This document shows, one piece after another, positions 14,657 to 23,344 of a DNA stretch of 39,009 bases. The notes beneath the pieces are model-generated. The model worked only from the letters and a program-made list of their open reading frames with translations, was not told the origin of the DNA and did not search any database. A program made the translations under genes and the position numbers. Source of the DNA: Hahella sp. (GTDB lineage: Bacteria; Pseudomonadota; Gammaproteobacteria; Pseudomonadales; Oleiphilaceae). Each line of letters opens with the position of its first letter. The stretch's first letter is position 1. Where the stretch lies: assembly GCA_028280065.1 (NCBI GenBank), contig JANQMN010000131.1, positions 1 through 39,009 on the forward strand, read 5' to 3'.

Positions 14657-16336
14657 CTAATTTTGCTGTTGCATCTGCTCTTTGATCAGATCACCGATAG
14701 TGGTCGGGCCTTGCGCTTCCGTCTGCTTCTCTTTCACGTCGCGAATCGCCTGCTTCTCTTCGTCAATATCCTTGGACTTGATAGACAGGTTAATCACCCG
14801 ATTTTTACGGTCAACGCTGATAATTTTCGCTTCGACTTCATCGCCTTCTTTCAGCACATTACGCGCATCTTCAACTTTGTCGCGGCTGATTTCGGAAGCC
14901 TTCAGGATCGCTTCGACATCGTCATTCAAGGCGATAACAGCAGCCTTGGCGTCGATGGAAGAAACCTTACCGGTAACGACAGCGCCCTTCTCATTGAGTT
15001 GTGTAAACTCTGCAAACGGATCGCTTTCCAGTTGCTTGATACCCAAGGAAATCCGCTCACGCTCAGGATCGATGGAAAGAATGACGGTTTCGATATCGTC
15101 GCCCTTCTTGTATCTGCGGACGGCTTCTTCACCGGTCTCGTTCCAAGAAATATCCGACAGGTGCACCAGGCCGTCGATGCCGCCGTCAAGCCCCAGGAAG
15201 ATACCGAAATCGGTAATGGACTTGATCTTGCCGTTGATGCGGTCACCCTTGTTGAACTTACTGGAAAACTCTTCCCAGGGATTCGGGTGACACTGTTTGA
15301 TACCGAGAGAGATGCGACGACGCTCCTCATCGATATCAAGGACCATCACTTCAATTTCGTCGCCTAACTGGACCACCTTGGACGGATGAATATTCTTGTT
15401 GGTCCAATCCATTTCGGATACGTGAACCAAACCTTCCACGCCTTCTTCCAGCTCGGCGAAACAGCCATAGTCGGTCAGGTTGGTGACGCGGGCAGTGACG
15501 CGGGTATTTTCCGGGTAACGCGCCTTGATCGCCACCCAAGGATCTTCGCCAAGCTGCTTCAGACCCAAGGATACGCGGTTACGCTCACGATCGAACTTCA
15601 ATACTTTAACGCCGATTTCATCGCCGACATTAACGATTTCGCTTGGGTGCTTGATCCGCTTCCAAGCCATATCGGTAATATGCAACAGGCCGTCGACGCC
15701 GCCCAGGTCAACGAATGCACCGTAATCGGTAAGGTTCTTGACGATACCCTTGACTTCCATGCCTTCCTGCAAGGTTTCCAGCAATGCTTCACGCTCGGCG
15801 CTATTTTCCGCCTCAAGCACTGCGCGGCGGGAAACCACAACGTTGTTACGCTTCTGGTCGAGCTTGATGACTTTGAATTCCAGGTCTTTGCCTTCCAGGT
15901 GCGCCGTGTCGCGGATAGGACGGACATCTACCAAGGAGCCTGGCAGGAACGCGCGGATACCGCCTAATTCGACGGTAAAGCCGCCTTTAACTTTGCCGTT
16001 GATAACGCCGTTGACAACTTCGTCTGCCTCAAAAGCTTTTTCAAGCTCTTTCCAGGCTTCGGCACGTTTGGCTTTTTCTCGGGATAGGCGGGTTTCGCCA
16101 AATCCGTCTTCCACGGCATCGAGAGCTACGTCGACCTCATCACCAATTGCAAGATTCAGTTCTCCTTTTTCATTTAAGAACTGAGAAACGGGTATAACCC
16201 CTTCGGACTTGAGTCCAGCATGGACAGTGACCCAATCCTGGTCAATGTCGACGACGGTTCCTTTAACGATGGAACCTGGTTGCATATCAATTTCTTTTAA
16301 ACTTTCTTCAAAAAGCTCAGCGAAGCTCTCGGTCAT
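14657..16336 (-). CDS. rpsA: 30S ribosomal protein S1
   Basis: This 559-residue protein has six S1 RNA-binding repeats, as in E. coli S1. Repeats are marked by [21 protein letters not shown] near the start and by repeated [20 protein letters not shown] and RISLGIKQ segments. It helps the 30S subunit recruit and unfold messenger RNA. The start at 16336 is preceded by AGGAAA. The neighbours cmk upstream and ihfB downstream are the standard context. The leader contains a hairpin that may serve the autoregulation known for S1. Confidence 0.97.
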
Positions 16337-16485: not shown

Positions 16486-17175
16486 TCAGCCAGCCTGTTT
16501 TTCAGACCAGATTCGCATCACTTTTTGCAACACCTGATCAATGGAAAGTCCAGATGTATCAAGGGTTACAGCGTCATCGGCAGGGCGTAACGGGGCATGT
16601 AAACGGTTCATATCCCGAGCGTCCCTTTCCTCTATCTCGTTTAAAAGGTGCGCAATTTTAACACTCTGCCCCTGCTGCATCAACTGCCGCTGTCTTCTCC
16701 TGGCACGCTCTTCTGCGCTGGCAACCAGAAACAACTTGCAATCCGCATTCGGAAACACCACCGTGCCCATGTCCCGACCGTCGGCGATTAATCCGGGTGG
16801 TTGTTGAAAGTCCCGTTGGCGTTGCAACAGCGCTTCCCTAACCTGCTGATGAGCGGCAACTTGAGAGGCCATTGCGCCGCAGGATTCGGTGCGAATTTCC
16901 AGCGTGACATCTTCGCCTGCCAGATTCACGGATACAGGCTGATCCGCCGCGCCTGGAACAAACTCCACAGCCAAAGTCGACGCAACCCTAGCAACCGCCT
17001 CGGCATCGTCCAATGCGACGCCCTGTTTGGCGGCGCTCAACGCGGTCAAGCGATACAAGGCCCCCGAATCCAAAATCCGCCAGCCGAGCTTGCCGGCCAA
17101 CAGCTGAGCGATCGTGCCTTTACCGGACCCGGAAGGCCCGTCGATGGTAATGACCGGTGCAGACGATTGCGTCAT
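16486..17175 (-). CDS. cmk: Cytidylate kinase
   Basis: This 229-residue enzyme phosphorylates CMP and dCMP with ATP. The P-loop GPSGSGKGT is at residues 13-21. The nucleotide-binding segments LDSGALYR and ADGRDMGTVVFPNADCKLFLVASAEERARRR are conserved. Its ATG (17173-17175) overlaps the TGA of the upstream tyrA-aroA gene by four bases, so translation is coupled. cmk sits between the aromatic genes and rpsA as in Pseudomonas. Confidence 0.96.
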   Translation of the reverse strand: MTQSSAPVITIDGPSGSGKGTIAQLLAGKLGWRILDSGALYRLTALSAAKQGVALDDAEAVARVASTLAVEFVPGAADQPVSVNLAGEDVTLEIRTESCGAMASQVAAHQQVREALLQRQRDFQQPPGLIADGRDMGTVVFPNADCKLFLVASAEERARRRQRQLMQQGQSVKIAHLLNEIEERDARDMNRLHAPLRPADDAVTLDTSGLSIDQVLQKVMRIWSEKQAG

Positions 17176-19433
17176 GCTTTCTCCACCATTTGAATATTAA
17201 ACCCTGAATCCTTGAGCAAGGACCATATATCCGGGAAGGTTTCCGCTAATTTCTCAGGCATCGCCAATTCCTGTTCATCTAACAGAATACTCGCCGCCAA
17301 AATCGTTGCCAAATCCAGGAAAGGATCGCCGGCAGCCTGGCGGCGCACAACCGGGAGTTGCACTGCCGATGGCTCGATCGGCTGAATTATCCAACGCTCG
17401 GCCTCTACAATCAGCTTGCAGCCCAACCAGGCAAGATGCTCAAAAAGACGCAATATCGTTTGCCGTTCGACGTCACCGAGCTGCTGACAATCACGCAGCG
17501 TGCTCGGCGATTCGGCGAACAGCGCCGCAACGATTAACGCCGCCATCTCATCCCGCATCCTATAGAAATCTATTGCCAGTAGATTAAATCCCTGCAACGG
17601 CGCACTTCTGATACGCAGATCGGCAACCGGTTCGGCACAGACCCGGTATTCACGCAGGACAATCACGTCAGCACCCATCTTCCGTAAAACCTCGTATGCC
17701 TTGAGCCGGAACGGGTTCAAGCCAAGGTGGCGCAGGGTTAAATCCGAGGATTGCACGAGGCTGGCGATCACGATAAAAAAGGTTGCCAGGGAAATATCCC
17801 CAGGTATATCCAACTGGGTCGCCTTGAGCGTTTGCCTTCCAGGAATTCGGATGTGCCCGCTGGAGCGTTGTATCGGATAACCGAAGCCTTCCAACATCCG
17901 CTCACTGTGATCCCTAGTCAACTGCTGTTCAACGATTTCCGTCTCCCCTTCGGCGAAGAGGCCGGCAAACAGTAGGCCCGACTTCAATTGCGAACTCGGC
18001 TCATCGAGCTGATGCAGGCAGGCTTGCAAAGCCGTCTTGCCATACAGCACTACCGGCGGCTTACCGTTGTCTCCAACTTCGATACTCGCTCCCATCAGCC
18101 GCAATCCGTCGGCAATCTTGGCCATGGAAAACTGCTGTATCGTCGCATCACCGACGATTTCACTGGCGAATCTCTGACCCGCCATTACGCCGGACAATAG
18201 CCGCATCGAGGTTGCCGAGTGTCCCACATACAGCGGTCCGGGCGGCGCATGCAAGCCATCAAAGCCAACGCCATGGATGACCATTCTTCCCCGGTCAGGC
18301 CCTTCAATCACCACGCCCATGTCCCGAAACGCCTGCACCGAAGCCAAGGCTGCTTCACTTTCCAAAAAGCCTTCAATATGCGTTGAACCCTCTGCCAGCG
18401 CTCCCAGGACCACGGCGCGATGAGCTATGCTCTTGTCGCTGCAAACTCGAATATCTCCGCCTATTCGTTTTGCCTTGCGAATCCGGATCGCCATCGCAAC
18501 GGGCTTATCCTGCCCCTGGTGATACCCCTGTCCGGCCAGCATTCTGCCGAAATGTTCCCGGGCTGCCTTGGCCCTGGTAAAAACGCCGAGTAACTGTTCG
18601 CCTTCGCCTTGGGCGATTGCCTCCCGAAGTTTAGCCAGGTCCACACTGAACCGGTCGATCATTTTTAACACAGCCCGTTGGTTAGAGAGATAGATGTCAT
18701 GCCACATTACCGGATCACTGGCCGCGATACGGGTAAAATCACGAAAACCGCCGGCAGCGTAGCGAAAAATGTCCTTGTTATCGTCGGCGCCCGCAAGGGT
18801 GTCCACCAGAGAAAAGGCAATCAAATGAGGCAAATGACTGGTAGCCGCCAACACTTCATCGTGATGTCCCGCCGACATCATCAACACTTGCGCACCCGCC
18901 GCTTTCCAAAGGCGCGCGACACAGTCCAGAGCGTCCATGGACGTTTCCGGAAGCGGGGTCAGTATGGTCTTATGATCTACAAACAACCCGGCATCCGCTG
19001 CCGCCACCCCGCTCTTTTCCGATCCGGCGATCGGATGCCCAGGCACGAACCCCGGAAAAGGTCCGGAAAACACCCGTGAAACCGCCTCGACCACAGCACC
19101 TTTGACACTGCCCATATCGGTCAAGACATGATGGCTTTTAAGCTCTCCGGCCATCTCCGACAACACCGGCTCAATAGCTTTCACCGGTACGGAAAGGACA
19201 ATAACGCGTGACTTTTGCGCCAACTCTTTCAAGTCACCGCAAGCGTGGTCTATCACCCCCATTCGAACGCCGGTCTGCATCTCATGCTGACGTAAATCAA
19301 AGCCATATACGGTCTTGACCGACTTTGCCTGCTTGAGCGCTTTTGCAAATGAGCCGCCGATCAACCCGAGCCCGACAATACCGATGCTGTCGACGGCGGG
19401 TTCCGAGGGCGAATTGGTCTGTAGACTGGTCAC
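17172..19433 (-). CDS. tyrA: Prephenate dehydrogenase fused to a degenerate EPSP synthase domain
   Basis: This is a 753-residue fusion. Residues 1-300 are TyrA: the NAD site GIVGLGLIGGSF (residues 18-29), GHPIAGSEKSG with the active-site His, and RDFTRIAASDPVMWHDI all look functional. Residues about 314-753 have the length and fold signature of EPSP synthase. K334, S335 and R339, which bind shikimate 3-phosphate, are kept, as are SSQLKS and TRDHSERML. Key sites are altered: the usual GNSGT is GHSAT (H405, A407), the RP after GDAS is F435-S436, KESDR is V655-E-R-Q-T659, and DHR is D703-P704-F705. Three PEP-binding arginines are therefore missing. I chose GTG at 19433, just before the conserved region; the frame extends to a TTG at 19538 without a ribosome-binding site. 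Confidence 0.9.
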   Translation of the reverse strand: MTSLQTNSPSEPAVDSIGIVGLGLIGGSFAKALKQAKSVKTVYGFDLRQHEMQTGVRMGVIDHACGDLKELAQKSRVIVLSVPVKAIEPVLSEMAGELKSHHVLTDMGSVKGAVVEAVSRVFSGPFPGFVPGHPIAGSEKSGVAAADAGLFVDHKTILTPLPETSMDALDCVARLWKAAGAQVLMMSAGHHDEVLAATSHLPHLIAFSLVDTLAGADDNKDIFRYAAGGFRDFTRIAASDPVMWHDIYLSNQRAVLKMIDRFSVDLAKLREAIAQGEGEQLLGVFTRAKAAREHFGRMLAGQGYHQGQDKPVAMAIRIRKAKRIGGDIRVCSDKSIAHRAVVLGALAEGSTHIEGFLESEAALASVQAFRDMGVVIEGPDRGRMVIHGVGFDGLHAPPGPLYVGHSATSMRLLSGVMAGQRFASEIVGDATIQQFSMAKIADGLRLMGASIEVGDNGKPPVVLYGKTALQACLHQLDEPSSQLKSGLLFAGLFAEGETEIVEQQLTRDHSERMLEGFGYPIQRSSGHIRIPGRQTLKATQLDIPGDISLATFFIVIASLVQSSDLTLRHLGLNPFRLKAYEVLRKMGADVIVLREYRVCAEPVADLRIRSAPLQGFNLLAIDFYRMRDEMAALIVAALFAESPSTLRDCQQLGDVERQTILRLFEHLAWLGCKLIVEAERWIIQPIEPSAVQLPVVRRQAAGDPFLDLATILAASILLDEQELAMPEKLAETFPDIWSLLKDSGFNIQMVEKA

Positions 19434-19565
19434 TGCAGATTTCCAAAGATAAGGAGCTTCATTGTCGGCATGCCTTGCGACTGCCTGACCTGTTAAGATA
19501 GCTGATAAATTCCGGCACCGCGAAACCGGCAGTAGCAATGCAATCGAACAACGATTGTTATTGAG

Positions 19566-20663
19566 CTAAAGAACGCCGAGCGGGTAGGAACCCAGATGCC
19601 GGATATCCAATACCTCTTTGCCAAGCTCCGCGATAACCTCTGCAACTTCCGGCTCATCCCAGTGCCCGCTGAAATCGATAAAAAAATGATAACGCCGTTC
19701 ACCACTGGAGGCGGGACGAGAATCCAACCGGGTGAGGCTCAGTCCATGCAGATAAAAGGGACCCAGCATTCTATATAGCGAACCTGGCTCATCTTTAATG
19801 GTGACCAAAATCGTTGTCCGGTCATTACCGCTCGGAGGAATGCGATCCTTGCCTACGATAAGATAGCGTGCGATTTGATTCGGCCGGTCTTCAATGTTTC
19901 CAGCCAACCGGCTTAATTCAAAAAGTTCTTCACAGATTTTCCCGGCCAGGGCCGCTGCGTTTTTCTGTTTTGCTGCAGTTTCGGCAGCTTCTTCATAGGT
20001 GGATACCGAGACACGTTCAACGCCGGGCCAGTTTTCATCCAGCCATTGCCGACAGTTGGCAAAGGTATCCGATTTGGAATAAATCACCGAGATGTCTTCC
20101 ACCGGCGTCATTTTCGAGGCGAGCAAATGGTAATGGGTTCGAATCTGCACTTCCCCGCAGATATTCAACGGCGAGTTGACGAACACATCTAAAGTGTGGC
20201 TGATCAAACCTTCGTTGGAGGTTTCGACCGGCACTACGCCATATTGGGCGGTTCCCGCCTCCACTTCTCTAAACACTTCATCAATTGCCTGATGCGGCAA
20301 AGCATGCACGGATTGGCCGAAGTGCTTAATCGCCGCCTCGTGGGTAAAGGTTCCGACCGGTCCCAAGTATGCTACGCGGAGAGGTCGTTCGAGCGCCAGA
20401 CAGGCGGACATCACTTCGCGAAATAACCGGGCTACTTCTTCGTCACTCAGCGGACCGGGGTTGCTTTCCATGATCTTGCGCAATACCTGGGCTTCACGCT
20501 CGGGGCGGTAGAAGATAACTTCTTTATAAGATCGATTTTTCAGCTTGACCTCGGCAACCTGCTGCGCACATTGCGCCCGCTCGGAGATCAAGGCTAACAA
20601 CTGACCGTCGATCGCGTCTATGCGATCCCGAAGTTTGCTCAATTCAACCTGTTCGTCACTCAT
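19566..20663 (-). CDS. pheA: Chorismate mutase with altered prephenate dehydratase (P-protein)
   Basis: This 365-residue protein has an N-terminal AroQ chorismate mutase (residues 1-90), with LRDRID, SERAQCAQQVAEVK and YRPERE intact. A prephenate dehydratase domain (about 95-275) and an ACT regulatory domain (about 280-365, LTRLDSRP and YHFFIDFSGH) follow. In the dehydratase the conserved GPEGTF is GPVGTF (V103), VENS is VETS (T148), the Gln of the S-H-x-Q-x-x-x-Q-C segment is N203, and the catalytic TRF motif is A265-R-Y. This would abolish or strongly alter phenylpyruvate formation if no compensating change exists. The ATG at 20663 has TTAGGAG ten bases upstream. gyrA ends 32 bases before it. 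serC, normally between gyrA and pheA in Pseudomonas, is missing. Confidence 0.9.
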   Translation of the reverse strand: MSDEQVELSKLRDRIDAIDGQLLALISERAQCAQQVAEVKLKNRSYKEVIFYRPEREAQVLRKIMESNPGPLSDEEVARLFREVMSACLALERPLRVAYLGPVGTFTHEAAIKHFGQSVHALPHQAIDEVFREVEAGTAQYGVVPVETSNEGLISHTLDVFVNSPLNICGEVQIRTHYHLLASKMTPVEDISVIYSKSDTFANCRQWLDENWPGVERVSVSTYEEAAETAAKQKNAAALAGKICEELFELSRLAGNIEDRPNQIARYLIVGKDRIPPSGNDRTTILVTIKDEPGSLYRMLGPFYLHGLSLTRLDSRPASSGERRYHFFIDFSGHWDEPEVAEVIAELGKEVLDIRHLGSYPLGVL

Positions 20664-20695
20664 TGCAGTCGGTCTCCTAACCACCCAGTGGCCAA

Positions 20696-23344
20696 TCAAT
20701 CCATATCGGTTTCGTCTTCGCCGCCGCCTGATCCGGCTTCGCGCTCCTCATCCTCTGAGCCGGCGTCGCTATCGTCAGTCTGGTCCGCTACCGCAGAAAC
20801 GGCTTCGTCGTCTTCCTCGGGTTCGGCAATCCGTTCGACACCCACCAGTTGCTCATCGTCCGCGACTCTGATTAAGCGTACTCCCTGAGTATTACGGCCA
20901 ACCACAGATATTTCTCCCGCGCGGGTACGCACCAGCGTGCCCTGGTTGCTGATCAGCATCAGTTCATCGCCTTCGATAACCTGCACTGCGCCGACCAACT
21001 TGCCATTTCGATCCGAACACTGAATTGCAATTACACCTTGTCCGCCACGCCCGTAAACAGGGAATTCGGTGACATCGGTGCGTTTGCCGTAGCCTTTTTC
21101 GCTGGCGGTCAGGATGAACGCCTCGTCGTCGGGCAGAATGAGAGAAACAACGGTCTGCCCTTCCACCAAGCGAATCCCCCGAACGCCTCGCGCTGTACGC
21201 CCCATGGGCCTAACGTCACTTTCATTGAACCGGATAGCTTTGCCGCTATCGCTAAACAGCATGACGTCGCTTTCGCCGTTGGTGATCGCCGCGCCGATTA
21301 AAATATCGTCGTCATCCAGATCAAGCGCAATCAACCCGGAAGACCGCGGGCGAGAGAAATTCTCCAACGAGGTCTTCTTCACCGTGCCCTTGCGCGTAGC
21401 CATGAACACATAGTGATCCTGGGCATATTCATTGACCGGTAAAAGGGTGCTGACCCGCTCGTCTTCCGCCAATGGCAGGATATTAACGATGGGCCTACCG
21501 CGGGAAATACGACTGGCCTGGGGGATCTCGAAGGTTCTCAGCCAGTACACCTTACCGTGACTGGTAAAGCATAAGATCGTATCGTGGGAATTGGCGATAA
21601 GAAGCTTTTCAATAAAATCCTCATCCCTGACAGCAGTTGCCGACTTGCCTTTGCCACCGCGCCGTTGCGCCTGATAATCTTCCAGCGGCTGGGATTTGGC
21701 ATAACCTTTGTGAGATAGGGTAACGACCACATCCTCTTCGGCAATCAAGTCCGCTACCGTGAGATCCCGCTTGGAACTACGAATTTCCGTCAGTCGCTCA
21801 TCTCCATAGGTATCGCGGATGTATTCAAGCTCTTCGCGGATGACTTCCATCAACCGGTCCGGGCTTTGCAAAATCTCTAATAACTCGGCAATTTTTTCCA
21901 GAATAACCTTATATTCATCAAGAATTTTCTCGGTTTCCAAGCCGGTTAATTTTTGCAGGCGCAGTTCCAGAATCGATTGTGCCTGGGCTTCCGACAAATA
22001 GTATTTGCCATCCACCAGCCCTAACCCGGGCGGCAGATCGTCCGGGCGGCAGGCATCGGCACCTGCCCTTTCCAACATGCCGGTCACCGAACCTGGTAGC
22101 CAGCCCTGGGCCATTAACTTTTCTTTCGCTTCGGCGGCAGTCGGCGATGCCTTGATCAAAGCGATAACGGGATCAATGTTTGCCAATGCAACCGCCTGGC
22201 CTTCCAGGATATGCCCCCGTTCCCTGGCTTTGCGCAGTTCGTATATGGTTCGGCGGGTGACCACTTCGCGACGGTGGCGCACGAAATTTTCGATCGCATC
22301 TTTCAGATTTAGCAGTTTTGGTTCGCCATTCACCAGCGCAACCATATTGATGCCGAAAACCGTTTCCAGCGGCGTTAAGGCAAACAAATTGTTCATAATA
22401 ACTTCGGCGTTTTCACCGCGTCTTAGCTCAATGACAATTCGCATTCCTTCCTTACTCGATTCGTCCCGAAGCTCGGTAATGCCTTCGATCTTCTTGTCTT
22501 TCACCAAATCGGCAATTTTTTCAACCAGTTTGGCCTTATTCACCTGATAGGGTATTTCCGTGACAATCAGTGTTTCCTTGCCGCTTTTGGGATCGCTTTC
22601 AACTTCATATCTGGCACGGATATATATGCGGCCGCGCCCTGTGCGGTAAGCTTCAATAATCCCCGCTTTGCCATTGATAATTGCCGCCGTGGGAAAATCC
22701 GGCCCCGGAATGTGCTCAATCAACTCATCGATACTGATATTCGAATTTTCGATATAGGCCAAGCAGCCGCTGATCACTTCTCGCAGATTGTGCGGCGGGA
22801 TATTGGTGGCCATACCGACAGCAATGCCGGAAGAACCATTCACCAGAAGGTTGGGGACTTTGGTCGGCAGAACAACCGGAATTTGCTCCGAGCCGTCATA
22901 GTTAGGTGCGAAATCCACGGTTTCCTTTTCGAGGTCCGCGAGTAGTTCGTGGGCGAACTTTTCCATGCGAATCTCGGTATACCGCATGGCGGCGGCGCTA
23001 TCGCCGTCGATCGATCCAAAGTTGCCCTGCCCGTCGATCAAGGTATAGCGCAGGGAGAATGGTTGCGCCATCCGCACGATAGTGTCGTAAACCGCCGTGT
23101 CGCCGTGGGGGTGATATTTACCGATTACGTCACCGACGACACGGGCCGATTTCTTATACGCCTTGTTCCAGTCATTACTGAGCTCACTCATGGCGAATAA
23201 CACCCGCCGATGCACTGGCTTTAAGCCATCTCGTGCATCCGGGAGGGCTCGGCCCACGATGACACTCATCGCATAATCCAGGTAGGATTGTTTTAACTCG
23301 TCTTCAATGTTTACGGGGAGGATTTCTTTGGCAAAGTCAGCCAT
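20696..23344 (-). CDS. gyrA: DNA gyrase subunit A
   Basis: This 882-residue type II topoisomerase subunit carries the catalytic tyrosine Y122 ([11 protein letters not shown]), the quinolone-determining region [14 protein letters not shown] with T83 and D87, the GyrA box QRRGGKG, and a C-terminal beta-pinwheel. The last 40 residues are a strongly acidic tail (EEDDEAV through EDETDMD). Position 83 is threonine, as in wild-type Pseudomonas aeruginosa, where E. coli has serine. AGGA precedes the ATG by 11 bases. The 294-base gap upstream probably holds its promoter. Confidence 0.97.

Follow-up and report, generated by a model that had tools for sequence, protein, structure and literature searches.

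The locus described here raises the question of why a fused enzyme domain should be kept at full length after its active site has been lost. The window, i.e., the whole stretch of DNA analysed, comprises positions 1-39,009 of contig JANQMN010000131.1 from Hahella sp. (genome code G000; the same-genus genomes are G001-G006). The gene in question is a tyrA-aroA fusion in which the AroA half, a 5-enolpyruvylshikimate-3-phosphate (EPSP) synthase homologue, is predicted from its residues to be catalytically dead. The Pfam domains PDH_N, PDH_C and EPSP_synthase were found in the fusion, and the gene and its two halves are located as follows, with residue numbers (P0001 numbering) counted from the TTG at 19538.

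17172..19538, minus strand: tyrA-aroA fusion gene, an open reading frame of 788 codons from TTG with zero internal stops
18519..19394, minus strand: TyrA (prephenate/cyclohexadienyl dehydrogenase) domain, residues 49-340, intact (Pfam PDH_N/PDH_C, motifs)
17199..18479, minus strand: pseudo-AroA domain, residues 354-780 (PF00275, 226 bits; predicted EPSP synthase fold; catalytic residues missing)

An alternative start, GTG at 19433, gives 753 codons and appears more likely than the TTG. An earlier note on this DNA used residue numbers that equal ours minus 35, from which we infer that it counted from this GTG. The note had claimed that the AroA half is of full length with no stop or frameshift, that it has lost its phosphoenolpyruvate (PEP)-binding and catalytic residues, and that it keeps the shikimate-phosphate lysine. 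The 788-codon frame is indeed unbroken.

The AroA half was aligned with E. coli K-12 AroA (Ec numbering) and with 19 fused relatives, and all seven residue changes named in the note were found. Ec N94 is replaced by H440, G96 by A442, R124 by F470, K340 by V690, R344 by T694, H385 by P739 and R386 by F740, and the canonical letter stands at all seven positions in 19/19 fused relatives. We take R124, R344 and R386 to be the PEP contacts of the E. coli enzyme, and group K340 and H385 with them as presumed PEP-binding/catalytic residues. A shifted alignment was ruled out, as GHSAT, VERQT and PF fall on GNSGT, KESDR and HR, and the PEP arginines are truly absent. The residues kept are K369 (Ec K22), which is the lysine that the note called K334, S370 (S23), R374 (R27), T443 (T97), R446 (R100), S515, S516 and Q517 (S169-Q171), D663 (D313) and E691 (E341). 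K22, S23, R27, S169, Q171, D313 and K340 are presumably the contacts to shikimate-3-phosphate (S3P). The sites, assigned by alignment, are listed below; the roles given for the first and the third are those of the E. coli enzyme.

18417..18434, minus strand: K369-R374, kept S3P contacts (Ec K22, S23, R27)
18210..18224, minus strand: GHSAT (439-443) replacing GNSGT, Ec N94H and G96A
18129..18131, minus strand: F470 replacing Ec R124 (PEP site)
17988..17996, minus strand: S515-Q517, Ec S169-Q171 kept
17550..17552, minus strand: D663, Ec D313 kept
17457..17471, minus strand: VERQT (690-694) replacing KESDR, Ec K340V and R344T, with E341 kept
17319..17324, minus strand: P739-F740 replacing Ec H385-R386

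Of the columns that do not vary among the 19 relatives, the window protein keeps 110/185 in its AroA half and 78/79 in its TyrA half. When each relative was left out in turn, it deviated at no more than 13 of the AroA columns on which the other 18 agree. The window protein is 69% identical to its closest relative, G003, in the TyrA half and 44% in the AroA half, whereas the corresponding values between G003 and G001 are 67% and 83%, and therefore the AroA half of the window is the odd one. Profile scores were also low. The PF00275 score of the window domain is 226-229 bits (226 over residues 354-773) and that of six same-genus fusions 404-410; the AroA half scored 236.4 bits, below the TIGR01356 cut-off of 287.25, and the whole protein 860.6 bits, below the cut-off of 902 for the bifunctional TyrA-AroA family NF011381. 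In the TyrA half, GLGLIG (GxGxxG), GHPIAG, SHLPH and GGFRDFTR are all present. We take these to be the nicotinamide adenine dinucleotide (NAD) motif and the substrate-site histidines and arginine, and since they are intact, TyrA is presumably still an active dehydrogenase.

A genome with a dead fused AroA would need a separate active one, as the earlier note had predicted, and a separate canonical AroA was found. Three genes in the window genome (6.68 Mb in 151 contigs) belong to PF00275. Besides the fusion, they encode MurA (on contig C83) and a free AroA (on C93). The C93 AroA has 427 residues, scores 489 bits and carries all 21 checked residues. Its sequence identity to E. coli AroA is 70%, and to the fused domain of G003 31%. 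The genes on C93, named from their sequences, are in the order type II secretion genes, GNAT gene, gor, and then aroA and cysE. The GNAT gene was found in all seven genomes of the genus, and GNAT and gor match G003 and G001 at 71-77% with their order conserved. No aroA or cysE lies behind gor in G003 and G001 (4.7 and 3.6 kb examined). C93 is therefore genuine, its genus-native genes in genus order ruling out a contaminating contig as the source of the free aroA, and aroA-cysE look inserted. The pair lies behind gor at L033:12295-14212 (G000:C93), with cysE extending past the contig end, and is possibly one transferred segment; in G003 and G001 this place is taken by other genes. When 29 free AroA proteins were placed in a tree, 25 formed a 99/99 group to which the C93 protein did not belong, which fits a separate acquisition. 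It is hardly conceivable that the fused half still works as an EPSP synthase, using a diverged site. The conservation of K22, S23, R27, S169, Q171, D313 and E341 would suit such an enzyme, but R124, K340, R344, H385 and R386, kept in 19/19 fusions and 28/28 free AroA proteins, are all gone, and a canonical AroA is present in the same genome.

The fusion is intact in all of G001-G006, where the second PF00275 match is a MurA 79-81% identical to that on C83. A PF00275 profile search, with matches typed as MurA, found no second AroA in these six same-genus genomes. Since the fused AroA is intact in all six and is their only one, the decay appears specific to the window lineage among the seven genus genomes compared. 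A third PF00275 homologue was seen in G001 (L227, G001:C1:1837800-1839199, 170 bits) and another in G020 (L228, G020:C15:167263-168662, 194 bits). They are 32% and 34% identical to MurA, respectively, and neither AroA query matches them, so that among the three queries used each resembles MurA only; they are predicted to be distant MurA-like paralogues.

A similar state recurs in the order. A scan with the window AroA half retrieved four Marinomonas fusions (L085-L088) of 743-756 codons in which the AroA site is lost, and each of their genomes contains, in addition to the fusion, a free AroA (468-477 bits) and a match that scores like MurA (405-415 bits). The contig scan with the window domain found no closer sister, the best segment having 48% identity, bar one short piece at 61%. 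We then surveyed 390 genomes of the order, with PF00275 matches listed down to about 417 bits. The survey set consisted of the 69 genomes besides G000 in which a free AroA scored 450 bits or more, and covers this AroA class only. TyrA was located in 67 of the 69, in 43 cases in a frame of more than 600 codons and in 24 in a frame of less than 400 codons. Six of the 43 long frames (group f44g59) were set aside as having no clear AroA part, a judgement based on the one of the six that was tested. With the window added, the remaining 37 give a set of 38 full-length fusions whose genomes also carry a free E. coli-type AroA, and 16 active-site letters were scored in each. By our own cut, a domain with at least 4 of the 16 changed was called dead. 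At least four letters were changed in 31 of the 38, one or two in 4, and none in 3. In contrast, 0/18 fusions from genomes without a free E. coli-type AroA had any active-site change; as for a second AroA in those 18, 17 have MurA as the second strong match and G056 has none. In three genomes (G043, G092 and G136), the fusion is intact and a free AroA is present as well, which fits, but does not prove, gain first and loss later. G083 and G144, with 4 changes each, sit among f6g61 fusions that have one or two.

The six f44g59 frames (L144-L149) are 607-647 codons long and include a C-terminal part of about 300 residues. The C-terminal part of L144 gave no significant Pfam match (best, EPSP_synthase at E 0.18), and this part is either an AroA relic that has decayed very far or a domain of another kind. 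In the genus coded f37g74, TyrA is encoded by 354 codons in L106 (G188) and by 333 in L110 (G108), with no AroA domain in either; G249, of the same genus, has a full-length dead domain. The AroA domain was probably lost cleanly and recently in L106 and L110.

A TyrA tree of 61 rows (31 dead; f44g59 genomes excluded) was built with 200 bootstrap trees. The dead state required six changes on it, at least five of them forced by supported branches, and 0/200 bootstrap trees needed only one change. An earlier quick tree of 67 rows, which counted f44g59 as dead (8 changes, at least 4 forced), is superseded. The window TyrA is the sister of the intact G003 and G006 within the genus (98/93, a supported branch; 95, also supported, in the 67-row tree), and its AroA loss is therefore independent of those in other lineages. 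The window's N94H and G96A are also present in five f37g52 fusions (L103-L105, L109 and L111). One ancestral loss common to the window and f37 was ruled out by this placement, and since the tree separates the two, N94H and G96A are apparently parallel replacements in one loop.

Selection on a dead domain could be followed in the genus coded g41 (f26g41), which we infer to be Marinomonas. In 48/48 genomes, the dead-domain fusion is of full length (731-772 codons) with zero stops. K340, R100 and H385 are kept in none of the 48, R124 in 10, R386 in 11 and Q171 in 4; K22 (46), S169 (41) and R344 (47) are well kept. Ratios of nonsynonymous to synonymous change (dN/dS) were calculated by the Nei-Gojobori method for the 57 of 1128 pairs with a TyrA synonymous difference below 0.62. 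While a domain without use is expected to evolve at a dN/dS of about 1, the median was 0.101 for the dead AroA and 0.042 for TyrA over these pairs, which share branches and are not independent. Free AroA had a dN/dS of 0.017-0.045, compared with 0.078-0.222 for the dead domain (9 of 21 pairs from seven genomes, with free-AroA dS below 2.5). With a dN/dS of about 0.10, the dead AroA domain in g41 is clearly under purifying selection, and by analogy the domain in the window is probably selected as well. The suggestion of the earlier note that the dead domain is kept for a reason thus holds at least in g41; the window lineage is represented by a single genome, and the interpretation is partly supported.

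New residues recur in the g41 pocket (e.g., in L150-L179), with Tyr, Phe or His at K340 in 44/48 and Tyr or His at R100 in 47/48. Together with the retention of R344, they could speak for a domain turned into a different enzyme. We consider this very unlikely, because near-invariant columns deviating from the intact consensus were about equally common in TyrA (50/176) and the dead AroA (25/80), no single new motif is common to the dead lineages, and the window is without the g41 set.

We think it fairly probable that the AroA half of the window is a pseudoenzyme domain, kept for a non-catalytic job after a free aroA was gained. The free gene would have arrived by transfer and made the fused active site redundant, whose residues would then have drifted or been selected away. 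The domain would have been retained as a full-length C-terminal part doing something non-catalytic, as seen in the relatives. Its likeliest job would be structural support of TyrA, through folding, stability, or oligomer or partner contacts on which TyrA depends, possibly with the retained S3P site as an added sensor. Structural support is ranked first because the dead lineages share length and, in two models, fold. In the AlphaFold2 model of the whole window fusion (mean predicted local distance difference test score, pLDDT, 86.6; predicted template modelling score, pTM, 0.61), the AroA domain has the EPSP synthase fold, mostly at high confidence. The best three Foldseek matches of this model were EPSP synthase chains, with TM scores by target of 0.90-0.92, and the best Protein Data Bank matches were the A. 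baumannii and C. burnetii enzymes. The model of the Marinomonas fusion L088 likewise has the EPSP synthase fold.

The order of genes around the fusion bears on the main competing explanation. The window holds the string gyrA, aroQ-pheA, tyrA-aroA, cmk and rpsA, in which the neighbours of the fusion were named from sequence alone.

16486..17175, minus strand: cmk, cytidylate kinase, which follows the fusion in the supraoperon
14657..16336, minus strand: rpsA, ribosomal protein S1
19566..20699, minus strand: aroQ-pheA, chorismate mutase/prephenate dehydratase, upstream of the fusion
20696..23344, minus strand: gyrA, head of the ancestral supraoperon
17172..17175, minus strand: ATGA, 4 bases shared by the fusion stop and the cmk start, from the ends of the reading frames

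Song et al. (2005, PMC1173090) describe the same string. The overlap makes translational coupling possible, and a cmk start candidate lies at the identical offset (-4) in each of G001-G006. Under plain relaxed decay, the domain would have no function at all, and breaks in the frame would be purged only because they uncouple, or are polar on, the essential cmk and rpsA. The overlap could alone protect the frame in this way, and the uneven erosion, worst near the C-terminal end, would fit as well. However, polarity protects only the frame and leaves the amino acids unprotected. We simulated neutral decay until 75/185 invariant columns had changed (300 runs at each of six settings). Without selection, 7.2-9.1 nonsense hits were expected on average (minimum 0-2 by setting), and the window has 0. 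The mean BLOSUM62 score of the replacements was -0.25 in the window versus -0.70 to -0.77 in the simulations (standard deviation, sd, about 0.18), i.e., the replacements in the window are milder. Hydrophobic invariant positions were still hydrophobic at 67/77 (0.87) in the window and at 0.79-0.80 (sd 0.04) in the simulations. In g41, dN/dS is about 0.10 although the fusion stop is followed 15-22 bases later by a cmk start candidate in 39/39 loci with cmk placed (cmk was not placed in 9/48 loci, and further candidates precede the stop in 5 of these 39). We therefore regard relaxed decay as possible but rather unlikely.

Several observations weigh against a retained function in the window. The hydrophobic retention is only about two sd above the simulation. 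Residues 654-773 keep 16/55 invariant columns versus 92/128 in 354-653, and decay concentrated at the C-terminal end could also be explained by unfinished erosion. No second genome of the window lineage was found, and the case for selection on the window copy is indirect; a codon-model dN/dS for the window branch was discarded, with dS saturated and branch lengths at the bound. AlphaFold2 may fold a relic well through its training and the alignment, and with a pTM of 0.61 the predicted arrangement of TyrA and AroA is uncertain. Furthermore, 24/67 of the genomes with a free AroA have a TyrA without an AroA domain, which would be expected under relaxed decay too, and TyrA can therefore live without the domain. 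Song et al. (2005, PMC1173090) accord with this, mentioning fully functional core-only TyrA proteins as well as a TyrA core that was separated by engineering from the Pseudomonas stutzeri fusion in order to be studied.

The earlier note had also proposed that the dead domain senses pathway intermediates, and retention of the S3P contacts is the sole hint of such a sensor. The domain would bind S3P and tune TyrA or the free AroA by allostery. Of the seven presumed S3P contacts, the window keeps 6 and has lost K340. Retention was compared with random sets of polar invariant columns; the P values are rough, as the rows are partly related and the comparison was framed post hoc, after the window had been seen. 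In the window plus five dead f37 fusions, S3P-only residues are kept at 24/24 (P 0.02) and PEP/catalytic residues at 10/42 (P 0.001). In the window alone, PEP/catalytic invariant residues are kept at 1/7 (P 0.010), while the S3P-only value of 4/4 is not significant (P 0.12). When the three shared residues were added, the P value of S3P retention was 0.15 for the window and 0.10 for the pooled six rows. The S3P-only contacts are eroded in other dead lineages, with 2-3 of 4 left in f26 (three rows tested), 0/4 in f6g122 and 1/4 in f6g155. We consider the sensor unlikely on these residue patterns. A broader idea, in which replacement by a free AroA repeatedly yields a selected non-catalytic partner of TyrA and the window and f37 domains serve as S3P allosteric sensors tying tyrosine synthesis to the upstream pool, seems to us just as improbable.

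The pseudoenzyme domain that we favour has partial precedents. The window fusion shares domain order, length and neighbours with TyrA-AroA (tyrAc-aroF in Jensen's naming) of the upper gamma-proteobacteria, PRK14806/NF011381, but differs in the lost AroA site and in its score below the family cut-off. Song et al. (2005, PMC1173090) report that in P. syringae TyrA about 200 residues are deleted from the fused AroF (AroA) domain, ascribe the free aroF to probable lateral transfer, and suggest that what is left of the domain could turn into a regulatory one. A fused AroA is disabled alongside a free AroA there as in the window, but the remnant is truncated, whereas the window domain is of full length and dead by point changes. 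In Candida albicans Aro1, according to PMC9074039, an inactive dehydroquinase (DHQase) domain mediates the homodimer, Dqd1 can do the step, and deletion of the domain left viability unaffected. Both cases have a dead domain in a shikimate-pathway multienzyme with a separate enzyme performing the step; the Candida protein is fungal and concerns another step and another fold. The 'gene fusion' of PMC3097199 refers to a transit peptide and is irrelevant here. The closest likenesses are the fusions of Marinomonas (L085-L088), f26, f37 and f6, which like the window fusion are of full length, have lost the AroA site and stand beside a free E. coli-type AroA, although partly different residues were lost and the losses are independent on the TyrA tree. 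The principle of a dead domain kept beside a separate enzyme is already in print. A full-length dead AroA on TyrA, its recurrence and selection on such domains were not found in searches of the open-access literature, as judged by titles and the opening lines of abstracts.

These fusions amount to a natural, repeated experiment on the fate of a fused enzyme half once its activity comes from elsewhere. Intact, dead full-length and absent AroA domains all occur within one order and are open to comparison, and the route from catalytic domain to pseudoenzyme becomes testable. They also serve as a warning for annotation, in that some genes automatically named bifunctional probably encode one activity only, which matters for pathway models and for the prediction of glyphosate targets.

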